From IMG/VR virus record IMGVR_UViG_3300025413_000084, positions 1 through 30,991 of that record: a stretch of 30,991 nt of DNA. The stretch is one strand, 5' to 3'. This document shows positions 2,257-16,298 of this stretch, one piece after another. The notes beneath the pieces were generated by a model. The model saw only the letters and a program-made list of their open reading frames with translations. It did not search any database and was not told the DNA's origin. The stretch is from a virus. The position numbers and the translations under genes are program-made. The first letter of the stretch is position 1. Every line of letters starts with the position of its first letter.

Positions 2257-2978
2257 TAGAAATGACCTTCACTGAATGGATCTTGAGCCGTAAAATCTAT
2301 GAAACCTGAAGATTCATTTGCCATGATATCATTTGTTCCTGTACCTTCAATATTATCTAGGTTATATTGTTCAACCTCGATATAATCATCATCTTCATTT
2401 GTAATAGGTTCATTCTGTTCTGTCATAATAGAATAATCAAGAATGTTAGTGCTATACTGAGTTTGGATACGATCAATTTCTGGAATACCAGTGCTGAATG
2501 TTTCGTCACTGTATTCGAATAATTCACAAGTCATTTCCCAAGTCTGTAATGAACCTAATTGATAGAACATTTCAAACTTGTTGACAAATTTAATCTGAAA
2601 ACATTTATTGTTCAATGGAAAATAAATTAAATCGCCTTCGCGTGGTCTAGTAATTGCTGTGTATGCACCAATTTCATTAGAGAATGTTCTTTGTGCAATA
2701 GAGAAAATAACCTGATCTCGAATTTCAAGACCAAACTTAGACATGAAATTACCATCGCCAGAAAATCCATCAACTGATTTGATATAAAATTCTACAAGAT
2801 AAGCATTGGTATACGATGATTGATCGTCAGCTGTGTAAACCTGATCGAGGTTATTAATATTACGAGGAATGTAAAACATATCCTCACCATAAATTTTGAT
2901 CGCTTCAATAATCAAATTTTCCAGCAAATCTTGTTCGCCCGAAGATTTATAGTTATTGAAATAAAAATTAGTTGACAT
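2256..2978 (-). CDS. 14: Neck protein, gp14-like
   Basis: 240 aa head-completion/neck protein that works with gp13 to join the portal vertex to the tail. Diagnostic segments are ENLIIEAIKIYGEDMFYIPR near the N-terminus, an SVDGFSGDGNFMSKFGLEI block that parallels T4 NSFEGYEGQKSFFSNFGMQ, EGDLIYFPLNN (T4 EGDLIYFPMDN) and FEMFYQLG (T4 YDPFYQLG). The tail is acidic and low-complexity. ATG overlaps the stop of the upstream homing endonuclease by one base (TGATG) and has only a weak AAG-type ribosome site, so it may depend on coupling to the inserted gene. Confidence 0.95.
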   Translation of the reverse strand: MSTNFYFNNYKSSGEQDLLENLIIEAIKIYGEDMFYIPRNINNLDQVYTADDQSSYTNAYLVEFYIKSVDGFSGDGNFMSKFGLEIRDQVIFSIAQRTFSNEIGAYTAITRPREGDLIYFPLNNKCFQIKFVNKFEMFYQLGSLQTWEMTCELFEYSDETFSTGIPEIDRIQTQYSTNILDYSIMTEQNEPITNEDDDYIEVEQYNLDNIEGTGTNDIMANESSGFIDFTAQDPFSEGHF

Positions 2979-3655
2979 CAGATTATATTCTTATGTTTAC
3001 ATTTGGCATTGTGGTAACGACCTATGGTTCCTGCATTGCCCTCATATTCACAATGCTGACATTTAATTTTCTTATTATTTAGTTCTTTGAAATGTGTTGT
3101 TTCTCTAATTTGGTTCTTGCGTTCTTCAGAAAGTTTTTTGCCTCTGTTAGCAGCTGCAGCCATTTCACGAGCTTTAAAATTATCTTTACCTACATTTTTA
3201 CCAATCATTGATTGGCGACGTTTTTCTCGAACTTCAATATCAGAACTTCTAGTGTCTCTTGTAGCTAATCCAGCGAGATATTTTTCTCTAACTGATGGGC
3301 GGTACATCGCTTCTTTAGTTTTTTGTGAAATTTTTTCTCTTATTGATAACGAAGAATTTATATCAGTTGTCCAATGACCCCATTTATGCTTACGTAAATT
3401 ATAATATTTTTGACCTAATTCTTCATTTTTAATAAAGGAAAGCCATTTATATTCCTCTTCGAACATCTGATCTCTGTTAGAAATATTCTCAATTAATATT
3501 TTTCTTGTGAAATCTTTAGGTCTACGCTTAAATGCTTTTCTCATCCTATTCGAAGAACAAATATATCCATCATTTTTAAATCCCCAATGACATCCAACAT
3601 AATACATTTTACGTTTTTTATCAAACCAAAGATAAACAAACCCATACTTTTCCAT
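2978..3655 (-). CDS. Free-standing GIY-YIG homing endonuclease (Seg-like)
   Basis: 225 aa from ATG at 3655. This start is preferred over an in-frame ATG 27 bases upstream because AAGGAG lies 8 nt before it and the GIY-YIG core begins at once. The core reads YGFVYL at residues 4-9 and YYVG at 18-21. Then come YICSSNR, basic helices, an EEEY segment (candidate catalytic Glu) and KYYNLRK (candidate conserved Asn). The middle carries NUMOD3-like DNA-binding repeats (REKISQKTKEAM, GKKLSEERKNQI). The C-terminus has a C2HC zinc-finger pattern: Cys199, Cys202, His215, Cys219. Such genes cut phage lacking them and spread into that locus by repair. It is inserted between genes 13 and 14, which are adjacent in T4, and seems to have its own promoter. 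Not essential for the virion by inference. Confidence 0.92.
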   Translation of the reverse strand: MEKYGFVYLWFDKKRKMYYVGCHWGFKNDGYICSSNRMRKAFKRRPKDFTRKILIENISNRDQMFEEEYKWLSFIKNEELGQKYYNLRKHKWGHWTTDINSSLSIREKISQKTKEAMYRPSVREKYLAGLATRDTRSSDIEVREKRRQSMIGKNVGKDNFKAREMAAAANRGKKLSEERKNQIRETTHFKELNNKKIKCQHCEYEGNAGTIGRYHNAKCKHKNII

Positions 3656-3685
3656 TTTAAAACTCCTTAAATTATAGAACATTAT

Positions 3686-5316: not shown

Positions 5317-6195
5317 TTAAAGTGGAGCAAGTATGCTAGAACCAGTGAATGTATGATATGTATAACCACCAGAAGAAGTAACAGTTCCGCCACTATATTT
5401 TTGTGTTCCTGCATAACGAATGATAATAATACCAGAACCACCACTACCAGAATAGCCAGGAAATCTAGCACCACCACCACCGCCGCCTAAATTAGTTGTA
5501 CCAGATTGAGCATTTGCACCATTGCCAAGAGAACCAGCTCCATATCCGCCACCACCTACACCACCATTACCACTGCCGCTCAATCCATGACCACCAGCAC
5601 CACCAGCATAGTAAGTTCCATTTACAGACCAACTTGTTCCAGCGCCACCATCTCCACCATAATCATTAATAGTAGTTGATGGATAATAATTTCCGCAACA
5701 ATAGTAGCTAGAACAAATTTGAGTTTGGTAACCTGCGTTACCAACTGCTCCAGCGCCACCACCACCACCAGAACCGCCAGAACCACCATTTTGATTAATA
5801 TTACCAGCGCCGCCATTATGTCCTTGACCAACAGTTCCGGTTCCACCACTACCCGCAGTGCCGCCACCACCACCAGAACCGCCAGAACCACCACCAGAAT
5901 AGTATGCGCCACCGCCGCCGCCACCTGTTGCAGAAATGCTACCAAATGATGAAACACCACCCTGACCACCAGAAGTAGAAGCAGCGCCACCTGCGCCAAC
6001 AATAACATTATAACTTATTCCAGCAGCAGAAGTTGTTCCTGATACAAAACCACCACCTGCACCACCACCACCTGCAATACCATTCCCTCCACCAACACCA
6101 GTACCACCGCCACCACCACCTGCAACGATTAGATAATCAAATGATGTAGGAAATACTTTTGATAATGAACCTAGTAAAACATTATAAATTGACAT
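5317..6195 (-). CDS. Glycine-rich adhesin (polyglycine-helix tip protein)
   Basis: 292 aa from ATG at 6195, which overlaps the previous stop as TAATG. An upstream in-frame TTG at 6243 is rejected because it lies inside the preceding gene. After a short hydrophobic N-terminus, DYLIVAGGGGGG begins a body with dense Gly runs of 4-6 residues separated by short variable loops, then GSGIIIIRY near residues 254-261 and an aromatic C-terminus. This is the layout of gp38-type adhesins of T-even phages such as S16, where polyglycine II helices display receptor-binding loops; that fold is inferred here. One loop at about 155-177 holds Cys161, Cys166 and Cys167 with many Tyr. It probably caps a fibre encoded upstream and binds the host surface. 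Confidence 0.78.
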   Translation of the reverse strand: MSIYNVLLGSLSKVFPTSFDYLIVAGGGGGGTGVGGGNGIAGGGGAGGGFVSGTTSAAGISYNVIVGAGGAASTSGGQGGVSSFGSISATGGGGGGAYYSGGGSGGSGGGGGTAGSGGTGTVGQGHNGGAGNINQNGGSGGSGGGGGAGAVGNAGYQTQICSSYYCCGNYYPSTTINDYGGDGGAGTSWSVNGTYYAGGAGGHGLSGSGNGGVGGGGYGAGSLGNGANAQSGTTNLGGGGGGARFPGYSGSGGSGIIIIRYAGTQKYSGGTVTSSGGYTYHTFTGSSILAPL

Positions 6196-6722
6196 TAGGT
6201 TAAACCGCCGCCAGTGATAACAAATGTATTGGCACCAACGCAAAATACTGTAGCTAACCCACGTTGTGCAAGTGTACGATTACCTGTAGTTGATGAACCA
6301 ACAAGATACATTGTTACACCAGAAGTTTGTACAATAGATTGATTTGCTGAACTGTCATTATAAATGGTTACTGATTGTCCTGCTGAAAAAATAGAAGCAG
6401 GAACAACAATGCCGCCACCTGTAATGTCAATAAACTTACCATTATCAGAAGCAACTAGTGTATAAGCACCACTTGTTTGTGAATTAACTGGAACATTTCG
6501 AATATTACCAATGCTATCAGAAAGTGTATTACTGAAAGTAGCTGCACCAGTTACTGTAATAGTATTACTGACAGCAAGAGAATTAGCAATTACAGCTGTT
6601 GAATTTACTGTGAGTGTAGTCGAACTACCAGCAACAATATTGATCGTATTAGAACCAGCATACTGAAATCTATTGTTGGCAGTAGATTCAAACCAAATAT
6701 TGGCTACTTGTAATGTTGACAT
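6195..6722 (-). CDS. Short tail-fibre-like protein
   Basis: 175 aa. The N-terminus MSTLQVANIWFEST is nearly the same as that of the 397-aa fibre (MSTLQVANI), suggesting a common attachment segment. It then has a Thr/Asn/Ser-rich repeat stretch with GAATFSNTLSD, matching the TFSNT repeats of its neighbours. The C-terminus (SGAYTLVASDNGKFIDITGG, then VTIYNDSSANQSIVQTSG) is a small beta domain often found at fibre ends: the growing 'YTL.ASDNGK.I...G....VP' pattern. No catalytic motif. An AGGT ribosome site lies about 10 nt before the start. The stop overlaps the start of the polyglycine adhesin, so the two may form a fibre/adhesin pair. Confidence 0.75.
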   Translation of the reverse strand: MSTLQVANIWFESTANNRFQYAGSNTINIVAGSSTTLTVNSTAVIANSLAVSNTITVTGAATFSNTLSDSIGNIRNVPVNSQTSGAYTLVASDNGKFIDITGGGIVVPASIFSAGQSVTIYNDSSANQSIVQTSGVTMYLVGSSTTGNRTLAQRGLATVFCVGANTFVITGGGLT

Positions 6723-6725
6723 ATG

Positions 6726-6911
6726 TTAACTACCTGTATTTGCTGTTGGTGCTGGAGTAATAGTAAGCGTACCAGCTTCTACTAATGTCATAATGTTTTT
6801 GTAATCTGTATTTGTAGAATCAATTGGAATGAAACCAGCTATATTATTAATATCACAGCTAATTCCTGTAACTACACCATTAAAAGAAATATATTGAGTA
6901 TTAGTGTACAT
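6726..6911 (-). CDS. Small conserved phage protein (61 aa)
   Basis: 61 aa from ATG at 6911, supported by CGGAG 8 nt upstream; it begins 2 nt after the stop of the 397-aa fibre. An in-frame TTG at 6917 is possible but would overlap that stop. The sequence MYTNTQYISFNGVVTGISCD, with IPIDSTNTDYKNIMTLVEAG further on, resembles small proteins of aquatic phages that follow fibre genes. No known function. It could be a fibre-associated or chaperone-like peptide; that is inference from its fixed place. A deleted copy of this gene follows the paralogous 386-aa fibre (8111-8141), which shows that fibre plus small gene was once a duplicated unit. Confidence 0.7.
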   Translation of the reverse strand: MYTNTQYISFNGVVTGISCDINNIAGFIPIDSTNTDYKNIMTLVEAGTLTITPAPTANTGS

Positions 6912-6935
6912 GATCAAAGCTCCGCTGATGCTGTA
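6904..6935. repeat. 32-bp direct repeat, copy 1 (3' flank of fibre tip)
   Basis: Identical over 32 bp to 8134-8165. It covers the last codons of the 397-aa fibre (ASAEL), its stop, and the ribosome site and first codons of the 61-aa gene. Identity ends abruptly at base 6936 inside the receptor-binding domain. It marks one edge of the variable segment. Confidence 0.9.
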
Positions 6936-8107
6936 TATGTAACATTAGAAATATTGCCTTCTCCAGAACCAGAAGGAGTTTGTGCAAAAGTAATTTGTCT
7001 CGATGTAATAATTGCTGCTGATGGTGAACCTGATGCTGTACCTGCATTTGTATATGCTGGAATAGTAACAGTTGGCGCTGTTCTCATTGTTACAGGCAAA
7101 TATAAACTAGGATAACCAAAAGAAGCCACCGATTGAAAAAATCTAGCAAAAAATATTCCGCTTTCTTGAACATAATATCTCTGACACTGCACCAATTGGT
7201 CGCTGTAGATTTGCAGCTCGTAAGGATTGGCTTTGGTTCCGACTTCGAGCTGGACGCCTGTGATGTACAAGCTCTCATCCGCGCCCGCCGTTCCAGAAGC
7301 GTTCCAAGAAACTTGAAACCCTATTTGTGTAGCTGTAGAAGAAACTGCCCCCGTGTACGCATATAACACCCATCCCGTTGTTATCGATGTGCTAGTGCTT
7401 ACAATTGTTGATTCTCCGGTCCATGCTCCACCAGTCATGTTGCTGAAGCTTTGATCAGTTCCAGTACCGGTGTAAATATTTATACCTATTGGTTGGCTTA
7501 AATTTGCACCCGCTTTTGCATAGAAAGAAAGCGTAATACTTTTTCCTTGCAGGTCGACGCTGTTCAGCGTTTCACAAGCCTGTCCCAAAGCATAAGCAGA
7601 TGTAACCATGTTGCCGGAGGCGCGTTGTAATTTGGCAGCATATTGAAACCCAGTTAAACCAGATGCAACTTGCGAAAAAGTTCCCGCGCCGCCAGCCGCG
7701 CTGTAGTATGCGACAAAGCGATCGATGCTGGGGTATATGGAACTATTGTTTTGAAGAGCGCCAGAAGTACCACGTTGAGCAAATAGCATATTCCCATTTA
7801 TAAGATGGTTGCGTTTGAAGCTGGACGCCATTGAAAAGTTACCGGCAACTGTTGTATCACCAGTAATATTAACTGTATTACTAAATGTAGCAGCACCAGT
7901 ATGTGTTGTTGTATTACTAAATGTAGTGGCACCAGTAATATTAACTGTATTACTAAATGTAGTGGCACCAGTAATATTAACTGTATTACTAAATGTAGCA
8001 GCACCATTTTGTGTTAGTGTACCTGACACAGCAACTGATTGAACAGAAGTTGTACCTAAATTAGATGTTGGTTGACCAACAATGTTTGCTACTTGTAATG
8101 TTGACAT
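6914..8107 (-). CDS. Tail fibre with exchangeable receptor-binding C-terminus (paralogue 1)
   Basis: 397 aa. Attachment-type N-terminus MSTLQVANI, then four 12-aa repeats of the form TFSNTVNITGAT (about residues 33-80) that likely form a trimeric shaft, then a conserved hinge DTTVAGNFSMASSFKRN. The large C-terminal half contains NGNMLFAQRGTSG, SIDRFVAYY, NSVDLQGKSITLSFYAKAG, a beta-sandwich core, GVQLEVGTKANPYELQIYSD and QLVQCQRYY. This order of motifs is a known phage fibre-tip domain resembling carbohydrate-binding jelly rolls. AGGT precedes the start. The shaft and hinge DNA is identical to that of the 386-aa gene, but the tip diverges sharply. It ends SAEL, as does the paralogue. Likely role: binding a host surface glycan. 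Confidence 0.85.
   Translation of the reverse strand: MSTLQVANIVGQPTSNLGTTSVQSVAVSGTLTQNGAATFSNTVNITGATTFSNTVNITGATTFSNTTTHTGAATFSNTVNITGDTTVAGNFSMASSFKRNHLINGNMLFAQRGTSGALQNNSSIYPSIDRFVAYYSAAGGAGTFSQVASGLTGFQYAAKLQRASGNMVTSAYALGQACETLNSVDLQGKSITLSFYAKAGANLSQPIGINIYTGTGTDQSFSNMTGGAWTGESTIVSTSTSITTGWVLYAYTGAVSSTATQIGFQVSWNASGTAGADESLYITGVQLEVGTKANPYELQIYSDQLVQCQRYYVQESGIFFARFFQSVASFGYPSLYLPVTMRTAPTVTIPAYTNAGTASGSPSAAIITSRQITFAQTPSGSGEGNISNVTYTASAEL
7815..7901. repeat. 87-bp direct repeat, copy 1 (hinge before fibre tip)
   Basis: Identical to 8988-9074 at an offset of 1173 bp, compared base by base. It encodes the end of the repeat shaft and the hinge (DTTVAGNFSMASSFK) of the 397-aa fibre. Identity decays immediately on the tip side, where only scattered codons match. 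It forms the other edge of the variable tip segment. Confidence 0.92.
7858..8007. repeat. 36-bp tandem repeat array in fibre shaft (4 units)
   Basis: Units begin CACCAG at 7858, 7894, 7930 and 7966, with the next partial unit at 8002, giving exact 36-bp spacing. Each encodes 12 aa (ATTFSNTVNITG-type). Three units are almost identical; the second has a variant centre (TTTHTG). The near-identity at DNA level suggests recent slippage or recombination, which would change shaft length by 12-aa steps. Confidence 0.88.
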
Positions 8108-8110
8108 TTA

Positions 8111-8141
8111 TTAATTACCTGTATTTGATATTGGTGTACAT
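8111..8141 (-). pseudogene. Deletion remnant of the 61-aa small gene
   Basis: The 31 bases keep the first codons (ATGTACAC, as in MYTN) and the last codons (CCAA..., ending CAAATACAGGTA.TTAA, as in the P-x-x-NTG-stop end) of the intact gene at 6726-6911. About 155 bp between them are missing. The deletion is out of frame, so the ATG now reads MYTNIKYR and stops. The junction lies at a short shared CAC, consistent with a microhomology deletion. The ribosome site (CGGAG) is still present. Confidence 0.82.
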
Positions 8142-8165
8142 GATCAAAGCTCCGCTGATGCTGTA
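8134..8165. repeat. 32-bp direct repeat, copy 2 (3' flank of fibre tip)
   Basis: Identical to 6904-6935. It covers the last codons and stop of the 386-aa fibre and the ribosome site and start of the deleted small gene. Together with the 87-bp repeat at 8988-9074 it brackets the divergent tip. Confidence 0.9.
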
Positions 8166-9304
8166 AAGTTTCCATAGTAATAGGCACCGGCAGTGGACGC
8201 GCCAACTCCGTAAATTTGAAATTGACCTGAGTATGGATTTAATGCCAGCGAGTTGAGATTTGTAGAGGAAACTGAACTTGTAGCCATCGATGGGGCGGTT
8301 CGCATTTCAACAGCAAATGATTGTTGGTAAAACATTGCTGTTGAGTTCAAAATGTAACCGGCTTGACCAAATTTACCAGCTTGATAATACCTCTGACACT
8401 GCGCCAACTGATCGCTGTAAATCTGGCGCTCATAGGGCGTGGCAATTGACCCTGCCTCAAGTTGCACATTACCAATCGTCCACGTTCCGCTGGTCTGCGC
8501 GCCAACAGAAAGAACAATCTGCAAGCCAGTCGTAGCCGCAGAAGGAATGGCAATCTGCACATTGTAGCGCGTCACCGTCGAGCTGACGGTAAACGTTCCG
8601 GTGGCGATGGAAGTGACCGTAGGAGACGCCAAAGTGCCAAACGTGTTCGTCGTGTTGGCGTAGTAGGCAGTCCACGTCACGGTCGTCAAAAGACTGTTCG
8701 CCAGATCGACGGAGAAGGTTGCCGTCGTGCCAGCAAGATCAGCGCAGTTGAGAGCTTCGATACGCTGCGCGAAATTGATGGCAGTGACGGATGCAGCACC
8801 AGTGAACTGATAGCGATACTGATTTGCCGTCGCGCCAGCCACTTGCTGACCCGTCACGTTCGCGCCTGTGCAGTAAGCGTAGAAACGGTCAACCGTATAG
8901 GTCAAAGCCGCACCAGCGGTGATCGTTTGTGCCGCGCCAGCATTGCGCTGGTCCACCGCGCAATTTCCATTGATGATGCGGTTACGCTTGAAGCTGGACG
9001 CCATTGAAAAGTTACCGGCAACTGTTGTATCACCAGTAATATTAACTGTATTACTAAATGTAGCAGCACCAGTAATATTAACTGTATTACTAAATGTAGT
9101 GGCACCAGTAATATTAACTGTATTACTAAATGTTACTGCATTATTGGTAGCAATAACAATAGCATTTGCACCAGAATTGCCTTGGAGAAATACACCACCA
9201 CCCGAAGAGACAATAACTTTACCACCGACAGTATTGCCAGAAGTAACCGTTAGATCGGTTGTACCATTAGCTGTATTAATTGTTGTTACTGAAAGTGTAC
9301 TCAT
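8144..9304 (-). CDS. Tail fibre with exchangeable receptor-binding C-terminus (paralogue 2, GC-rich tip)
   Basis: 386 aa. N-terminus MSTLSVTTINTANGTTDLTV, then GGGVFLQGNSGANAIVIATN, three TFSNTVNITG repeats, and the same hinge DTTVAGNFSMASSFKRN as the 397-aa gene. The C-terminal half has the same tip family motifs (NGNCAVDQRNAG, TVDRFYAY, IEALNCADLAGTTATFSVDL, IGNVQLEAGSIATPYERQIY, QLAQCQRYY) but a quite different core, and ends TASAEL. Its core coding DNA is distinctly GC-rich (67 G/C in the 120 bases 8581-8700), unlike the shaft and unlike the rest of the window, which points to acquisition from another phage or host background. ATG overlaps the 227-aa gene's stop (TAATG). Probable host-glycan-binding tip. 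Confidence 0.85.
   Translation of the reverse strand: MSTLSVTTINTANGTTDLTVTSGNTVGGKVIVSSGGGVFLQGNSGANAIVIATNNAVTFSNTVNITGATTFSNTVNITGAATFSNTVNITGDTTVAGNFSMASSFKRNRIINGNCAVDQRNAGAAQTITAGAALTYTVDRFYAYCTGANVTGQQVAGATANQYRYQFTGAASVTAINFAQRIEALNCADLAGTTATFSVDLANSLLTTVTWTAYYANTTNTFGTLASPTVTSIATGTFTVSSTVTRYNVQIAIPSAATTGLQIVLSVGAQTSGTWTIGNVQLEAGSIATPYERQIYSDQLAQCQRYYQAGKFGQAGYILNSTAMFYQQSFAVEMRTAPSMATSSVSSTNLNSLALNPYSGQFQIYGVGASTAGAYYYGNFTASAEL
8988..9074. repeat. 87-bp direct repeat, copy 2 (hinge before fibre tip)
   Basis: Identical to 7815-7901. It lies in the 386-aa fibre gene at the shaft/tip boundary. High-GC sequence begins just on the tip side, so the repeat edge coincides with the compositional break. 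Confidence 0.92.
9031..9138. repeat. 36-bp tandem repeat array in fibre shaft (3 units)
   Basis: Units begin at 9031, 9067 and 9103 with the same 36-bp unit as 7858-8007; the next block, from about 9132, is degenerate (TGTTACTGCATTATTGG). It encodes three TFSNTVNITG-type 12-aa repeats in the 386-aa fibre. One unit fewer than the paralogue. Confidence 0.86.
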
Positions 9305-9987
9305 TAGATGATCACCGCTCTACCGCCAGTTGAAATTGTGAACGTATTACCTGTGCCAATAGTGATCGGACCAGTAGTCAGAGCATTTTCACCAGCAGCA
9401 ATGGTAATATTATTTGACATCGTATTTCCATTAATACGGAAAAGATTGTTTGCATTTGAAGGCGCGCCAACTGTGCCAGCATTACCTTTATAGTAACCAC
9501 CACCAGATGAAAATGCAGTACCATTAATGAAAACACCAGTACTGGTAAGATATGCATTAACAGTAGAGTTACCAACAAAAATAGCAGAGCTGTTTGAACT
9601 TACATTCGAACCAACAGAAACAACACCACTGAATGTTGGGGAAGCTAGAAGCGCATAGCTCGCAGCAATAGTTCCACCAAGATACAATGCATTATTAGCG
9701 GTAAGCGAAGTCAACGCACTGTTGACGTTTAGATCAGCTTCGTTTTTACCGAAAGCATGAGTAGCATTATTAGCTGTGCTACCAGAGATATTGATGTTTT
9801 GGAGATTAGCTTGCAACTGTGCATTTGATACAACGTTAGCCGCAGAAACAGTTCCAACGTATAAAGCGTTATTAGCCGTGCCAGTGAAGAAAGTAGAATT
9901 TACTGTCGCATTGACAGAAGAGTTGCCGACGATTAAATACGTATTTGCAACTACGCCATTTTTAACTTGGAAGTCTAATGCTGACAT
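9304..9987 (-). CDS. Tail-fibre-like structural protein
   Basis: 227 aa. It starts MSALDFQVKNGVVANTYLIV, a short attachment-type N-terminus common in aquatic T4-like phages. The rest is built of fibre repeats: VGNSSVNATVNSTFFTGTAN, NNALYVGT, and NALYLGGTIAASYALLASPTFSG, the same building blocks as in the 760-aa fibre. The C-terminus turns to TIGTGNTFTISTGGRAVII, a beta-strand ending with no recognisable receptor-binding domain, so the tip may come from a partner. AAAGGGA lies about 8-10 nt before ATG, and a late-promoter-like octamer lies about 32 nt upstream. Its stop overlaps the start of the 386-aa fibre. Confidence 0.78.
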   Translation of the reverse strand: MSALDFQVKNGVVANTYLIVGNSSVNATVNSTFFTGTANNALYVGTVSAANVVSNAQLQANLQNINISGSTANNATHAFGKNEADLNVNSALTSLTANNALYLGGTIAASYALLASPTFSGVVSVGSNVSSNSSAIFVGNSTVNAYLTSTGVFINGTAFSSGGGYYKGNAGTVGAPSNANNLFRINGNTMSNNITIAAGENALTTGPITIGTGNTFTISTGGRAVII

Positions 9988-10018
9988 TATCGGTTCCCTT
10001 TCCCCGAGTTCTTTTTAT

Positions 10019-10026
10019 TATTTATC
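10019..10026 (-). promoter_or_regulatory. T4-type late promoter candidate before the 227-aa fibre gene
   Basis: Minus-strand GATAAATA, the same octamer as before gene 13, 31 bases upstream of ATG 9987 and overlapping the stop of the 111-aa gene. It would launch a separate transcript for the variable fibre set (227-386-397-61-175-292 aa). Position in a gap and identity with 4487-4494 are the support; no experimental evidence. Confidence 0.48.
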
Positions 10027-10357
10027 CAACTGCCCAAGGCAAGGTAGGATTAATTACAGTAGGTGGATTAGCTGAATTGTCAATTGATGTATTAATTAAA
10101 GCTTGTGCATCAGTTATTACTGCTGGATCAGTATATTGTTCAACCCAAGAAATAACATCTGTTTCTGTCAAAGTTGCAAAAGGTTTATATTCAGTTGCTG
10201 GATTATATGGTATATCTGTACTTCCTAATACAATAGAACTGTATGTACCATCTGTACCTTTGTATTCCCATAAAACTGTGAATACAAGATTTTCTAATGA
10301 TTGGTATGTTGGATAACATAAAACGTTTGTTATTCTATAAGAATATGTAATTGACAT
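10022..10357 (-). CDS. Small conserved phage protein next to fibre genes
   Basis: 111 aa. MSITYSYRITNVLCYPT, NLVFTVLWEYKGTDGTYSS, YKPFATLTETDVISWVEQY and a Pro-rich end (NPPTVINPTLPWAVG) match a family of about 110-130 aa phage proteins encoded near tail fibres; I believe Pfam lists it as a DUF (possibly DUF7936), but I cannot check. The usual traits are a beta-rich N-terminus, the T-x-x-x-V-I-S-W-V-E motif and a final P-W. No enzymatic motif. It could be a fibre-associated or assembly factor by location. AAGGA precedes ATG by about 9 nt. Confidence 0.7.
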   Translation of the reverse strand: MSITYSYRITNVLCYPTYQSLENLVFTVLWEYKGTDGTYSSIVLGSTDIPYNPATEYKPFATLTETDVISWVEQYTDPAVITDAQALINTSIDNSANPPTVINPTLPWAVG

Positions 10358-10368
10358 TTTTTATTTCC

Positions 10369-11088
10369 TTAGTATTCAATAATGATTGCACCAGTGCTTC
10401 CTGCACCACCCGAACGACCAGTTGCAGCAGAGCCAGCATAACCACCAGATCCTCCAGCGCCAAATCCAGTGCCAGCAACACCATTAGCACCAGTGATTGG
10501 TGTTGGTGTTAATCCGCCAATACCATAACCAAGTGGTGTACTAGCACCAATACCAACTACTGAAGTAGTTGCAGCTGCAATGCCACCAGTACCACCAGCC
10601 TGACCGTTAATGCCTAATGCATTGGCAGTTGTACCATTTGTAATTGCTGATTGCGTTCCACCAGTTCCACCTGCACCACCAGAAACAGAAGCACCAGCAG
10701 CAACAGTAGCATATGTTGTACCGTTATAAGTTATACTCGAAAGACCACCAGCACCACCTGCACCAGCAGAAGCACCAGCTGTTCCTGCAGCACCAACTGT
10801 ATATGTCATAGTATATACACCAGCAACAACTGTTAAGTAAATAACAATTACAGCTCCAGATCCACCACCACCACCAACTGAACCAATAGTTGCAGCAGAG
10901 CCAGCACCGCCACCACCACCACCAATAATAGTTACTTTAATTTTAGCTCCTGCAAATTGCAAAGCTGTTGGAAAAGTATATGTTGCTGCAGAACCAGTAA
11001 CAAATACAGTCATATTTGAATAACCAGCACCTGCACCGTCAACTAATAATGAACCATAAACTCTTGTTCCACCTATAAGTTTTGCCAT
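10369..11088 (-). CDS. Second glycine-rich adhesin-like protein
   Basis: 239 aa. It begins MAKLIGGTRVYGSLLVDGAG, then a beta segment and FAGAKIKVTIIGGGGGGAGS, an Ala/Gly-rich body with many GGxGG runs, and ends GSTGAIIIEY. The 'VTIIGGGGGG' entry and 'GAIIIEY' exit are the same plan as YLIVAGGGGGG and GIIIIRY in the 292-aa adhesin, but this body has more Ala and Thr and no Cys. This layout is typical of Gly-rich tips of phage fibres. It follows the lectin-like 969-aa gene, so it may decorate a different fibre from the 292-aa protein. AGGAAA precedes the start. Confidence 0.75.
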   Translation of the reverse strand: MAKLIGGTRVYGSLLVDGAGAGYSNMTVFVTGSAATYTFPTALQFAGAKIKVTIIGGGGGGAGSAATIGSVGGGGGSGAVIVIYLTVVAGVYTMTYTVGAAGTAGASAGAGGAGGLSSITYNGTTYATVAAGASVSGGAGGTGGTQSAITNGTTANALGINGQAGGTGGIAAATTSVVGIGASTPLGYGIGGLTPTPITGANGVAGTGFGAGGSGGYAGSAATGRSGGAGSTGAIIIEY

Positions 11089-11106
11089 TTTAATTTCCTA
11101 TTTTAA

Positions 11107-14016
11107 TTATGATGTACCTGTTACTTCATCAAACTGATTAAATATTTGAGTAATACCTGTATTGGACAATTTCATCACCGTTGTATTTGCTGGCAATACA
11201 AAGTTTGGCGTAGCAAATGGAATAGGGCTAGTCTGCTGAGTTGTACTACTCGATGTCAGTGTATAACCATTAAGTGAATTGTCTTTCAATGTTGATGACT
11301 GTGATGTAAGTAATGAAACTTGTGAAGCATTAGCACTTTGACTTGTTGTAGTCAAAGGTGATGTTGATGGAGTAAATCCAGTTGTATATAATGCTGTTCC
11401 TTTAACAATACGAAGGTTAGAAATATACCCATTATATTTCAAAAATTGATCAGAAGCTCTTGCTCCAACATATAATGCCTGCGTTGAAGTATCATCAGCG
11501 GAAACAATGGTTACGCTTGAACTTGAATTTGCCAATGTTCCATTTAAAAACAATCTAGTAGTTGTACCATCATATGTTGTTGCTACGTGATACCAAGTAT
11601 TATTAGCAAGAGCTGATGTTTTTAAATTTCCATTATCTGTATAATACGTCATTGTATTATCAGTTTCTATACGAAAAGTATAACCAAATGTACTTGCTAA
11701 ATTTTTATTGACAAGGTCTTGCTGTGTTCCATTGACAAGCGTTGGATACATCCAATATTCAACAGTATAATTCGATCCAGCTAATACTAAAGATGTATTT
11801 GCTGGAACAGTATAATATGCTGAACCATTAAAGTAAGTACTGAAATAACCATCAGGAAATCCAATAATAGGAAATGGACTAACCGTAGAATTTGTTGGAG
11901 AACCAACTTTTGCAATTGGATTATTATATACACTGATATCAGTTAAATCTGTTTTAAGAGTTCTCAATAATAACGTTGTACTTGCTGTGTTAGTAATAGC
12001 AGAAATATTAGTTCCAGAACCTTGTGTTATTGTCAATAAGTTTGTTGGTGGCGTGAACGTACCAGTATAAACAGCAACACCACTTACAATACGAAGATTT
12101 GAAATATAACCAGGAAAATAACCGCCAACTACAAGACCATAATAACTTCCAATAGTGCTAGTTGTGGGTGTTACTGTATAGTTTATGGAGTCAGTGGCTG
12201 TTGCTACTGAAACACCATTTCTGTAAATCGTTCCTGTTGTTCCACTTCTAACGTAAGCAACATGAAACCATTGACCAGTTGGAAAATCTGTTGTTGATGC
12301 ATCATTTGCACGTATAGCACCACTGCTATACCAGCCAAGACGACCAGCACCACTCAAACCAAAACCAAATGCCCAAGATGTTGTATGTGTTGAATCTCTA
12401 GCATCGATAATATATTGCGATGCTTGTGTAGCAGTAAGATATATCCAAGCTTCAACAGTAAAATTGCCTGTACCAAATGCAACACCAGAGCCTGATGACC
12501 AAGTTAAATACTGAGATGTACCATTGAGCGAAATACTTCCAGTTAAATTAGGATTTAAAGACATTTCATCAAAATTATTAAAAGTTTGTAATACACCATT
12601 GCTGTATTGTTTACTAACCGTTAAACCAAGATTTGCTGCATATGATGGTAACAACTGAAGAGGTAAACAGTTGTTCGTATTTGTTAGCGTAAATGCATTT
12701 GGCGAATTATCAATAATAGTTGGTGATTGACCAGTAACTAAAGATGCACTACCAGGTGGAAGATTATAAAGTGGTGGTGTGAAATTTGATGTATAAATTG
12801 CTGAGTTATTAGAGATACGAATATTAGAAAGATAACCACTGAACTGTGCATTAACAGTGCCAACTGTATCATATCCAATATTTAATACAGCAGCTCCTGT
12901 TCCAGGTTGTGTAATAGTTACTGGTGTTGTCGTAACGCTTTTACCATTAAAATATATCGTAGCAGAGCCAGCATTTGAAACTACTGCAACATGATACCAA
13001 GTATTCAAAGCAATAGATGTATTACTAGAAACACCAGTAGAACCTGTAAGCGGTCGACTAGCAGAAATAGTTGAGTCTGGATTAAGATAAACGGTAAAAG
13101 AATTCGATGTACCATTAACTCCAATCATTATAAATCGACATTGGTTTGAAGCAGGAACTACAGCTGTTTGATATAACCAAGTTTCAATAGTCCAATTACC
13201 ACTAGAAAGAGTAAAAGCTCCGCTAGACGGAGCTGTCAATTTGCTACCATTAAAATATATACCATAATATGCATTTGGTAAAAATGGAGTTGATGCTATT
13301 GATAAAGCAGTACCGACGTTAGTGACTGTAAAAGCATTTGGACTTGAATCTAAAAATGCATCTTTAGTGTATGGCGTATTTAATAACAGAGATGTATTAG
13401 TAATAGGTGTTAACGGTTGCTTTGGTGGAGTAAATGCTGATGTATATACTGCTGTACCTTTTACAATACGGAAATTTGATATATAACCATTCAACGCATA
13501 AGTTGCTGATGGATTGTTACCATCGGCACCGATAATAGGTCTGTTAGCTCCAACAGTATAAGAAGTGGAGTCAGATACGCTCGAACCAACTTGCGATCCA
13601 TTAATATATAATCTTGAAGTGCCGCTTGCTCTAGCAACGGCAACATGATACCAAGTATTGATAGATAATGTTGGTCCAGTTATTGTAGTAGCACTGAGGG
13701 TAGTTGATATAACACCGGCTGTTGATGCTCCAATAACAATATAATTTGTTGTTGATGAAGTACCTGCGGGTCTTAAGTCGAATATCTGACTTGCGCCCGA
13801 TACAAAAGATGTAAAATTTACCCAAAATTCAATAGTAAAATCACCAGCGCCAAAAGTAAACGAAGAAGCCGCTGAGGTTGGAAGATTTAAATATTGAGTT
13901 GATGCTGCAGTGAATGAAATACTACCCATTGCATTAGGATTATTTGTTACTTCGTCGATGTAGCTGTAGGTTTGTAGATTACCAGTATTAGCTAATCTGC
14001 TAACTGTATTTGCCAT
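11107..14016 (-). CDS. Large adhesin with four LamG/ConA-like lectin domains
   Basis: 969 aa. Four concanavalin-A-like (LamG-type) domains at about residues 29-200, 250-415, 492-660 and 722-885. Each has an [FY][ET][IV]E.W strand (FTIEFW, WTIETW, FTVEAW, YTVEYW), a W[YF]HVA strand (TWYHVA three times, QWFHVA once), a glycine-rich NG turn, and GY[IL]SN[FIL]RI followed by A[VIL]YT..FTP. These domains bind sugars or protein ligands in many phages and bacteria. The domains come in two pairs; each pair is preceded by a Q-x-[FY]-x-x-[FI]-D-E linker (D21, D483), and a third copy of the linker (D963) ends the protein. The start overlaps the 760-aa gene's stop. Likely a receptor-recognition or virion-surface protein. 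Confidence 0.85.
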   Translation of the reverse strand: MANTVSRLANTGNLQTYSYIDEVTNNPNAMGSISFTAASTQYLNLPTSAASSFTFGAGDFTIEFWVNFTSFVSGASQIFDLRPAGTSSTTNYIVIGASTAGVISTTLSATTITGPTLSINTWYHVAVARASGTSRLYINGSQVGSSVSDSTSYTVGANRPIIGADGNNPSATYALNGYISNFRIVKGTAVYTSAFTPPKQPLTPITNTSLLLNTPYTKDAFLDSSPNAFTVTNVGTALSIASTPFLPNAYYGIYFNGSKLTAPSSGAFTLSSGNWTIETWLYQTAVVPASNQCRFIMIGVNGTSNSFTVYLNPDSTISASRPLTGSTGVSSNTSIALNTWYHVAVVSNAGSATIYFNGKSVTTTPVTITQPGTGAAVLNIGYDTVGTVNAQFSGYLSNIRISNNSAIYTSNFTPPLYNLPPGSASLVTGQSPTIIDNSPNAFTLTNTNNCLPLQLLPSYAANLGLTVSKQYSNGVLQTFNNFDEMSLNPNLTGSISLNGTSQYLTWSSGSGVAFGTGNFTVEAWIYLTATQASQYIIDARDSTHTTSWAFGFGLSGAGRLGWYSSGAIRANDASTTDFPTGQWFHVAYVRSGTTGTIYRNGVSVATATDSINYTVTPTTSTIGSYYGLVVGGYFPGYISNLRIVSGVAVYTGTFTPPTNLLTITQGSGTNISAITNTASTTLLLRTLKTDLTDISVYNNPIAKVGSPTNSTVSPFPIIGFPDGYFSTYFNGSAYYTVPANTSLVLAGSNYTVEYWMYPTLVNGTQQDLVNKNLASTFGYTFRIETDNTMTYYTDNGNLKTSALANNTWYHVATTYDGTTTRLFLNGTLANSSSSVTIVSADDTSTQALYVGARASDQFLKYNGYISNLRIVKGTALYTTGFTPSTSPLTTTSQSANASQVSLLTSQSSTLKDNSLNGYTLTSSSTTQQTSPIPFATPNFVLPANTTVMKLSNTGITQIFNQFDEVTGTS

Positions 14017-16298
14017 TATGAGAATACCGTGTCAAGACTTCCAGATATTGTATTTATGAACTGATATGCAACACCAGTGCTTGTACCTGTCGCGTTTGTA
14101 AAGGCAATATTAGATACAGCAATAGATGCACCATTACTAAATGAACTACCACCACCCGTTACTGTTGACCAATAAACACCACCAGTAGCATTTGATGTCA
14201 ATACTTGGTTAGCTGTACCATTCGAACCATTTGCTGTAATTACACTGGATACAACTATAGTATTGGAAAATGTGATGGTGTTTGTAAAAGTATATTGGCT
14301 TGCTGTATTAACGCTACCGCTACCACCAGTAACACTTGCCCAAATTGTTGCTGTACCATTTGATGTTAATACTTGGTTATTTGTTCCTATTCCACCATTG
14401 ATTGCGATTGCTGTAGAATTGATATTAACATTAACAGTGTTGTTACCGTGGTTTACAGAAGGAACAGTAATTGCACCAGTAAACAGAGCGCCGGAAAGTG
14501 CAGCATAGTTAGCAAGATTATTAGACAGCTGGAACGATGTAACATAAGAAGAAGAAACAACACCACCAAGATAAGCAGAATTATTAGCATTTAATGCATT
14601 GTTAGCTGTGCCATTTATTGTACTATTAAATATAATAGTGTTCGTAAATGTTTGGGTGTTCGACCAAGTATATTGAGCGTCAGCATTGGCAATATTAGTA
14701 ATTGTTTGCCAAATCGTTGCTGTGCCATTTGATGTTAATACTTGATTAGTTGTGCCAACGCTTCCATTAATAGCAATAGAAGTGGAGTTAATATTTACGT
14801 TTACACTATTATTACCATGATTAACAGAAGGAACAGTAATTGCGCCAGTAAATACTGCACCAGAAAGTGCAGCATAGTTCGCTAAATTATTTGTTAACTG
14901 GAATGCAGTAGTATAAGATGCAGCTGCTATACCACCAAGATAAGCAGAATTATTAGCAGTGCCAGAAAAAGTAGTTGAATTAATAGATGCATTAACAGTA
15001 GAGTTACCAACATAGATTGGATTCTTTGTGAATGTACCTGCATAACCAGTTTCAAGGTAAGTATTACCCGAACCCTGACCAATTACAAAACCTTCAAGAT
15101 TAGAAGCAGCCGCAATGATATCAACGGTATTGTTCGTGTAATAGAATTTGGTAGTTACACCAGTATTGCGACCCATTCTCCAATTAGCATCAGTAATACC
15201 ATTAAAATATATGGCGCTTGTATTACTATTCAAACCAAACAAACCACCATTGATAGATACGTTAGCATTGAACGTATGGTTATTTGTCCATGTAAAAGCT
15301 GCCGCTGTATTCGTGCCAGTAGCTGCAGCTATAGTTGACCAATAAGGAGGGCTAGCACCGTTCGAAGTGAGAACCTGCCCTGCGTTACCATTTGAGCTAC
15401 CAGCAACCAAAGTAGATGTTACTTCAAAAGGAACAACAGCTTTGAAACTAGAAGTTGAACTATTTGCAAATACTGTCCATATTGCTCTCTGACCATAAGT
15501 TGCGTTAGTCGAATACATAACGAAATTGTCATCATTTTGTTGAATAAATGATGAGTATGCAAAAGTATTAACTGTTTGGAAATTTAAACTTTTATTATTG
15601 TTTAGTATGAGATTATTGTTATGTGTTATAACACCTGATAATGTATAGCTTCCAGAAGTATTAACATAAGAAGAAGCAGCAACACCGCCAAGATTGTTGG
15701 CATTGTTAGCAGTAAGAATAGCAACGTTAGCAGCTAGTGTTGAATTGAGCTGATAAGAAGAAGCAGCAGTTCCACCAAGATAAGATGAATTATTAGAACT
15801 ACCAGAGAATGTTGTTCCATTCATGGTAACATATGCAGAATTGTTACCTATCTGTAAAACAGAAGAATTTGCAAAAAATAAGTTAGCTGCTGACGCATAT
15901 GTTGGATTGTTAACAACACCAAACCAAGTGTTACCGCCAGGACCATTATTTCCTGGCCAACCAAGCGTAATTGTTGGACCAAGATTTTGACCACCAATCA
16001 AAGCGTTTGCGCTAAGAGCAACGAAATTGGTTGTAGTGTTAGCAGCTGCAAAGATTGTAGAGTTGACAACAGAATTGACACTAGAATTACCAATGTATAT
16101 TGTATTGGTCACAGATTGATTCAATACATTAGAACCAACGTATATTAAGCTAGTACCATCTGAAGTATAGAGGATTTGATCCGGCATGTTAAGCGCAAAT
16201 TCACCAGCAGCAATATACTGTGTGTTAGATGAATTTGTTGTATTAGGAATTCGTCCAGCAGTGGACGTTCTCTTATGCTGGATAATATTATTAGCCAT
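14016..16298 (-). CDS. Long tail fibre protein with Mtd-like N-terminus and internal duplication
   Basis: 760 aa. The N-terminus (QHKRTSTAGRIPNTTN, AAGEFALNMPDQILYTSDG) is the 'K-R-x3-x-P ... GE-A-N..D..LY..D' pattern of the major-tropism-determinant N-terminal domain that attaches fibres to baseplates. The body is a long array of fibre repeats: YIGNSSVNSVVNSTIF, NSSYLGGTAASSY, NQVLTSNGTATIW, and TANNSAYLGGIAAASY. Two consecutive blocks repeat with a 369-bp period. The C-terminus is short (FINTISGSLDTVFS) without an obvious binding domain, so the following lectin or Gly-rich proteins may serve as tips. A strong AGAGGA site precedes ATG. Confidence 0.82.
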   Translation of the reverse strand: MANNIIQHKRTSTAGRIPNTTNSSNTQYIAAGEFALNMPDQILYTSDGTSLIYVGSNVLNQSVTNTIYIGNSSVNSVVNSTIFAAANTTTNFVALSANALIGGQNLGPTITLGWPGNNGPGGNTWFGVVNNPTYASAANLFFANSSVLQIGNNSAYVTMNGTTFSGSSNNSSYLGGTAASSYQLNSTLAANVAILTANNANNLGGVAASSYVNTSGSYTLSGVITHNNNLILNNNKSLNFQTVNTFAYSSFIQQNDDNFVMYSTNATYGQRAIWTVFANSSTSSFKAVVPFEVTSTLVAGSSNGNAGQVLTSNGASPPYWSTIAAATGTNTAAAFTWTNNHTFNANVSINGGLFGLNSNTSAIYFNGITDANWRMGRNTGVTTKFYYTNNTVDIIAAASNLEGFVIGQGSGNTYLETGYAGTFTKNPIYVGNSTVNASINSTTFSGTANNSAYLGGIAAASYTTAFQLTNNLANYAALSGAVFTGAITVPSVNHGNNSVNVNINSTSIAINGSVGTTNQVLTSNGTATIWQTITNIANADAQYTWSNTQTFTNTIIFNSTINGTANNALNANNSAYLGGVVSSSYVTSFQLSNNLANYAALSGALFTGAITVPSVNHGNNTVNVNINSTAIAINGGIGTNNQVLTSNGTATIWASVTGGSGSVNTASQYTFTNTITFSNTIVVSSVITANGSNGTANQVLTSNATGGVYWSTVTGGGSSFSNGASIAVSNIAFTNATGTSTGVAYQFINTISGSLDTVFS
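14338..14960. repeat. Tandem duplication, 369-bp period, inside the 760-aa fibre gene
   Basis: Segments 14338-14591 and 14707-14960 align without gaps at offset 369 (for example GATGTTAATACTTG at 14362 and 14731, and ACCACCAAGA at 14562 and 14931). Each copy encodes NQVLTSNGTATIW, NLANYAALSGA.FTGAITVP and NSAYLGG. Differences are mostly silent third-position changes, so the duplication is old and the protein sequence is under selection. It encodes a 123-aa shaft unit. Confidence 0.87.

Follow-up and report, generated by a model that had tools for sequence, protein, structure and literature searches.

Two neighbouring tail-fibre genes that share exact repeats and differ in their tips raise the question of whether such a locus is a standing switch of host range, the outcome of a gene duplication, or an assembly of modules exchanged with other phages. 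We addressed this in the window, by which we mean the whole stretch of 30,991 bases analysed here. It is a virus record representing a fragment of a phage genome rather than a complete one, and its backbone genes are T4-like, including a T4-type terminase, a gp15-type tail sheath stabiliser and a baseplate wedge. The evidence considered below favours the view that modular exchange at three joints (J1, J2 and J3) built this tail-fibre (adhesin) gene cluster of a T4-like phage, a reading to which we assign a probability of roughly 0.85.

Fibre genes and their joints

The two fibre genes described by the first-pass annotation, of 397 and 386 aa, are present as open reading frames on the minus strand (genes A and B; Table 1). 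Their sequences place them among known tail fibres, as both match the PHROGs family phrog_4492, and tblastn gave matches annotated as tail fiber in cyanophage S-2L, S-CRM01 and others. Along the minus strand, gene B is followed by a small-gene remnant (MYTNIKYR*), gene A, a 61-aa small gene and finally gene C, a third member of the fibre family. Pfam searches returned no domain in genes A, B, C or the small gene. PHROGs likewise held no family for the small gene of this phage and only families of unknown function for that of a relative; a role for it in fibre assembly is a guess. Among bacterial genomes, relatives are few (Herbaspirillum, a proteobacterial MAG and a Nitrospiraceae MAG) and too little for a host call. 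The cluster is flanked by two glycine-rich proteins (Pfam Gly_rich_2; 10369-11088 and 5317-6243), one of which matches PHROGs tail-fibre families. Elsewhere in the window, a 760-aa structural gene contains an internal repeat (14336-14589 and 14706-14958, 79% alike).

A and B share an architecture comprising a head, a shaft of 36-bp repeats, a CBM4/22-like jelly-roll core and a variable distal tip. The earlier statement that the tips diverge strongly is valid for their DNA but not for their architecture or family, which are the same in both. The common elements are the shaft repeats, with an array in gene B (9031-9133) related to that of gene A, and the joints; the two heads are not alike. At their starts, genes A and C resemble each other (6703-6722 = 8088-8107), which A and B do not.

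Table 1. Features of the fibre cluster, in coordinates of the window
Feature	Position	Strand	Basis or relation
Tail-fibre gene B, 386 aa	8144..9304	-	ORF; phrog_4492 tail fiber, E 3e-42
Tail-fibre gene A, 397 aa	6914..8107	-	ORF; phrog_4492 tail fiber, E 1e-29
Gene C, third fibre-family gene, 175 aa	6195..6722	-	head recurs in G001 on a core-type tip
Small gene after fibre, 61 aa, MYTNTQY...	6726..6911	-	small-gene type found after J3 in many contigs
Small-gene remnant between B and A, MYTNIKYR*	8115..8141	-	found in G001 too
36-bp shaft repeats of gene A, TFSNTVNITGAT units	7858..8006	-	repeat families D7, D10
Core of tip B, residues 104-307	8384..8995	-	90-94% DNA identity in L008, L009, L011, L012; fold; GC
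Core of tip A, residues 96-312	7172..7822	-	90-93% DNA identity in L088, L089
Distal tip of B, 79 aa	8147..8383	-	replaced in most core-sharing phages; kept in L101, L110
Distal tip of A, 85 aa	6917..7171	-	last part 96-97% identical in G001, detached from core
J1 of gene B, shaft end, ITGDTTVAGNFSMASSFK	8988..9074	-	87-bp repeat copy; shared-core homology starts 8984-9022
J1 of gene A	7815..7901	-	87-bp repeat copy; L088/L089 core homology starts at 7833
J2 of gene B, QIYSDQLAQCQRYY, core/distal-tip border	8384..8467	-	D11 repeat; homology stops within a few bp
J2 of gene A	7172..7255	-	D11 repeat
J3 of gene B	8134..8165	-	32-bp repeat: fibre end ASAEL*, GGAG, next ATG; 19-bp core widespread
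J3 of gene A	6904..6935	-	32-bp repeat; crossover site relative to G001

The repeats of 87 bp and 32 bp, which had been reported as perfect, are indeed exact and lie where they had been placed. When the window was resampled 30 times under an order-3 Markov model, the longest exact repeat measured 14-17 bp, and both observed repeats are therefore far beyond chance. They are direct, not inverted, and the longer of them is part of a 171-bp stretch, 91% alike, that includes the 36-bp shaft repeats. A third, weaker repeat (D11; 84 nt, 73%) had escaped the first-pass annotation. The joints accordingly number three: J1 where the shaft meets the core, J2 at the codon that follows QCQRYY, and J3 where the fibre gene ends. 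Position 7833 of gene A, at which core homology begins, is equivalent to 9006 in gene B. Literature searches on the QCQRYY motif yielded nothing relevant, and a search of other contigs for exact A or B heads or J1 recovered only the same phage and the relative G001 discussed below.

J3 is widespread: part of the 32-bp repeat, the 19-bp sequence GCGGAGCTTTGATCATGTA, was recovered from the viral collection in 38 stretches, of which 36 lie outside this phage, and each ends a fibre-type frame (...AEL, stop) with the ATG of a small ORF two bases on. Among 69 fibre ends that were not chosen for their J3 sequence, GGAG was present in 43 of the 57 with an ATG within 5 bases as opposed to none of the 12 without one (p about 1e-6), and the last Glu codon was GAG in 53 of the 69 as against 160 of 372 elsewhere in the genes. 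Going by these patterns, J3 likely has two uses: it supplies the last codons of the fibre and, for the small gene behind it, the ribosome-binding site and start. Such a double use would explain why J3 is constant at the DNA level, and this constancy would in turn make it a ready place for homologous crossover.

For the core, an AlphaFold2 model of B built with 60 relatives gave a confident structure for residues about 120-290, the distal part being less certain. This predicted core matches the jelly-roll of CBM4-2 in the PDB (2y6j; Z 15.8, with 2.4 A over 154 residues) as well as phage CBA120 TSP4 (Z 13.4); a PDB sequence search with the fibre alignment found a single weak match, to a phage spike (E 0.003). 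The core is thus predicted to fold like a CBM4/22-type module, a fold which alone is no proof of sugar binding. We infer that the tips may bind bacterial surface sugars and that their exchange would change host range.

Modules shared with dissimilar phages and a recombinant relative

The core of B (8384-9006) recurs at 90-94% DNA identity in four contigs (L008, L009, L011 and L012) that are otherwise dissimilar to the window: when flanking DNA was compared up to 6 kb on each side, no other match was found in these or in L088 and L089, which share the core of A, the exception being a B-core fragment in L089. Highly identical modules are in this way embedded in unrelated flanks. The GC content of the B core is 55-57% versus 37% for the window. 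L101 shares the end of the B core and the distal tip that goes with it; its portal belongs to phrog_156 and its terminase to phrog_3717, and an endolysin of phrog_315 is found in both L101 and L088; on account of these genes the two look like another kind of phage.

Most core-sharing pairs (cores 85-97% identical in DNA) show only background identity in the distal tips and over the 300 bp upstream. The borders are sharp: of 52 deduplicated pairs, 30 lose their homology no more than 3 bp from J2 and 40 no more than 12 bp from it, while at J1 (SFKRN) 20 of 53 pairs do so within 12 bp. These counts derive from 36 contigs with loci picked for core similarity to B, and as pairs share members they are not independent events, yet picking by core similarity creates no sharp borders. 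Conservation of the core alone is insufficient as an explanation, because G001 keeps the distal tip of A without A's core. The proposal that tips are exchanged between anchors is therefore borne out by modules that are shared with dissimilar phages and break at the joints, while the picture of just two anchors gives way to one in which exchange also occurs at a third, J2.

We also observed relatives of both cores in one otherwise dissimilar phage (L089/L127, 3300025723_000926), at positions 1-191 and 3617-4132 of L089. The B-type core (97% DNA identity) and the A-type core (93%) lie ~3.4 kb apart in the same order as in the window, and the former carries a different distal tip. Tandem fibre pairs of this core type were found elsewhere too (L020, L023, L049, L109 and L118); in L118 and L109 each tandem fibre appears to have its own small gene after it.

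A trace of exchange at a joint is found in G001 (IMGVR_UViG_3300021138_000105, also L090, L124, L133 and L134), whose large backbone proteins are about 55-60% identical in amino acids to those of the window. Its fibre cluster (L133 12354-18639) occupies another place in the genome, between two baseplate genes, which suggests that the cluster moves as a block. Its heads are, in order, of types B, C and A, each on a tip other than that in the window, and its shaft has one unit fewer than the 36-bp array of gene A. One junction in this cluster combines the surroundings of the two window genes: its left side is identical to the end of A at 56 of 60 positions versus 23 of 60 for the other parent, the joint itself at 22 of 22, and the right side, which includes the small-gene remnant and A's head, at 190 of 198 to the sequence following B here versus 51 of 198 for the other parent. 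Relative to the window, the junction is a clean crossover inside the 32-bp repeat, such as would result if the ends of A and B recombined unequally. It comes from one diverged relative and one contig, and the piece of the A tip in G001 sits on an 80-aa ORF that is possibly non-functional. The first-pass annotation had proposed relatives with a different tip between the same anchors as support for exchange, and G001 is such a relative. Owing to its recombinant junction, tip exchange at the anchors is shown over evolutionary time.

In the scheme that we favour, the fibre cassette consists of head, repeat shaft, CBM-like core and distal tip, with a small gene behind them. Its pieces would be swapped by homologous recombination, whether between phages or between the copies of one array, at the shaft end (J1), at the codon that follows QCQRYY (J2) and at the fibre gene end (J3). 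The last is probably held constant in DNA because it both encodes the final residues of the fibre and provides the ribosome-binding site and start codon for the next gene. The cores and tips of A and B would have been acquired separately, with only shafts, joints and some gene starts in common. We infer general homologous recombination to be the agent; T4-like phages usually carry their own general recombination genes. In keeping with the earlier remark that no recombinase or reverse transcriptase is involved, searches of the window, a genome fragment, recovered neither a reverse transcriptase nor a tyrosine integrase or serine resolvase; a site-specific inversion or integrase switch would call for such a recombinase and for inverted sites, and the 87- and 32-bp repeats are direct. 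A 234-aa protein (window 2978-3682, start ...YGFVYLWFDKKRKMYYVGCH) has, by eye, the look of a GIY-YIG homing endonuclease and has no Pfam match; enzymes of this type could favour nearby exchange.

Going further, we tentatively entertain a broader picture, which we hold to be possible rather than probable: environmental phages of different families might draw CBM-type tips from a common pool via three standard DNA joints, with J3 as a general landing site held by its double use and tandem fibres as a small within-genome library of tips.

Switching, duplication and artefact

The first-pass annotation had gone beyond exchange as such and viewed the locus as a standing host-range switch, in which the repeats would recombine frequently at present and the population would mix phages with one tip, the other, or both. 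The direct repeats are long enough for homologous recombination, and the J3 junction expected from such events exists in G001. Against this, three near-identical contigs (the window, 3300025391_000052 and 3300006117_000052, which may be related samples or reassemblies) all have B and then A, spaced by 1173 bp; they are identical in the fibre genes and across 6.9-9.1 kb, and no recombinant arrangement was seen among them. Additionally, recombination between direct repeats gives deletion or expansion of a tip, not reversible flipping. We consider a switch operating today unlikely.

If one fibre gene had simply been duplicated in tandem and the tips had then diverged fast, the common shaft and joints, the shared protein family and the recurrence of tandem pairs elsewhere would be accounted for. 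This origin is opposed by the differing heads of A and B, by the differing GC of the cores and, above all in our view, by the 90-94% DNA relatives that each core has of its own in other phages, and it strikes us as quite improbable. Duplication of the whole fibre gene was rejected on the last of these grounds. By the same token the two tips are not a recent duplication, and the claim of a standing duplicate is not supported: what is repeated is the shafts, joints and gene starts, and the cores look like separate imports. Of the original recombination proposal, module exchange at anchors is thus supported, whereas the standing switch, the duplicated tip and the restriction to two anchors are not.

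Could the assembly have merged two phages at their shared repeats? Shared cores can break assemblies, and L016 starts inside a core at a contig end; but the three near-identical contigs are base-for-base equal across the fibre genes and the repeats are shorter than usual short reads, which leaves an artefact very unlikely. Least credible of all is a diversity-generating retroelement rewriting the distal tips as variable regions from a template, since, for all that the variable region lies at the C terminus and its end is constant, the tips vary in length and do not align, no template repeat of the tip occurs in the searched interval 5500-11500, and no reverse transcriptase was found in the window or in seven related records (all fragments).

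Relation to known systems

Modular exchange at the three joints places tail-fibre exchange points between otherwise dissimilar environmental phages at base resolution, and the overlap of a gene end with a ribosome-binding site offers a reason for the DNA constancy of one of them. Receptor-binding tip swapping without a dedicated enzyme thereby becomes testable on sequence data, and the exact joint motifs can be used to find and sort such tips in metagenomes. New in detail is a cassette with three joints, of which the dual-use J3 spans a gene border; a limited literature search found no description of it.

In T4-like phages the fibre genes form a variable, mosaic region (PMC2993671), and changes of host range through recombination of fibres and duplication of adhesins are known (Riede 1986 and Tetart 1996, cited in PMC9004378). 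The present phage parallels these in its T4-like backbone and mosaic fibre genes; unlike theirs, its fibres are short ones with CBM-like cores, and their breakpoints fall at three defined joints. Receptor-binding proteins more generally undergo domain shuffling, in which near-identical fragments turn up in proteins and genomes that otherwise differ (Smug et al. 2023, PMC10684548), and recent cases between families or lifestyles were found only in fibres and spikes (PMC10684548). Near-identical modules in otherwise different genomes are seen here too, but the borders are placed to a few bases and one of them runs across a gene border, from the fibre end to the next start. At the level of fold, CBA120 TSP4, the Klebsiella K2-2 TSP and Kp7 gp52 have CBM-fold domains with the jelly-roll predicted for the core (Z about 12-13), whereas sequence identity to this group is low (7-18%); moreover, CBA120 TSP4 is an enzyme-bearing spike, and no enzyme domain was seen in the fibres here. 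Taken against these systems, the locus is a clear example of a known process, that of mosaic tail fibres, and not a new switch.
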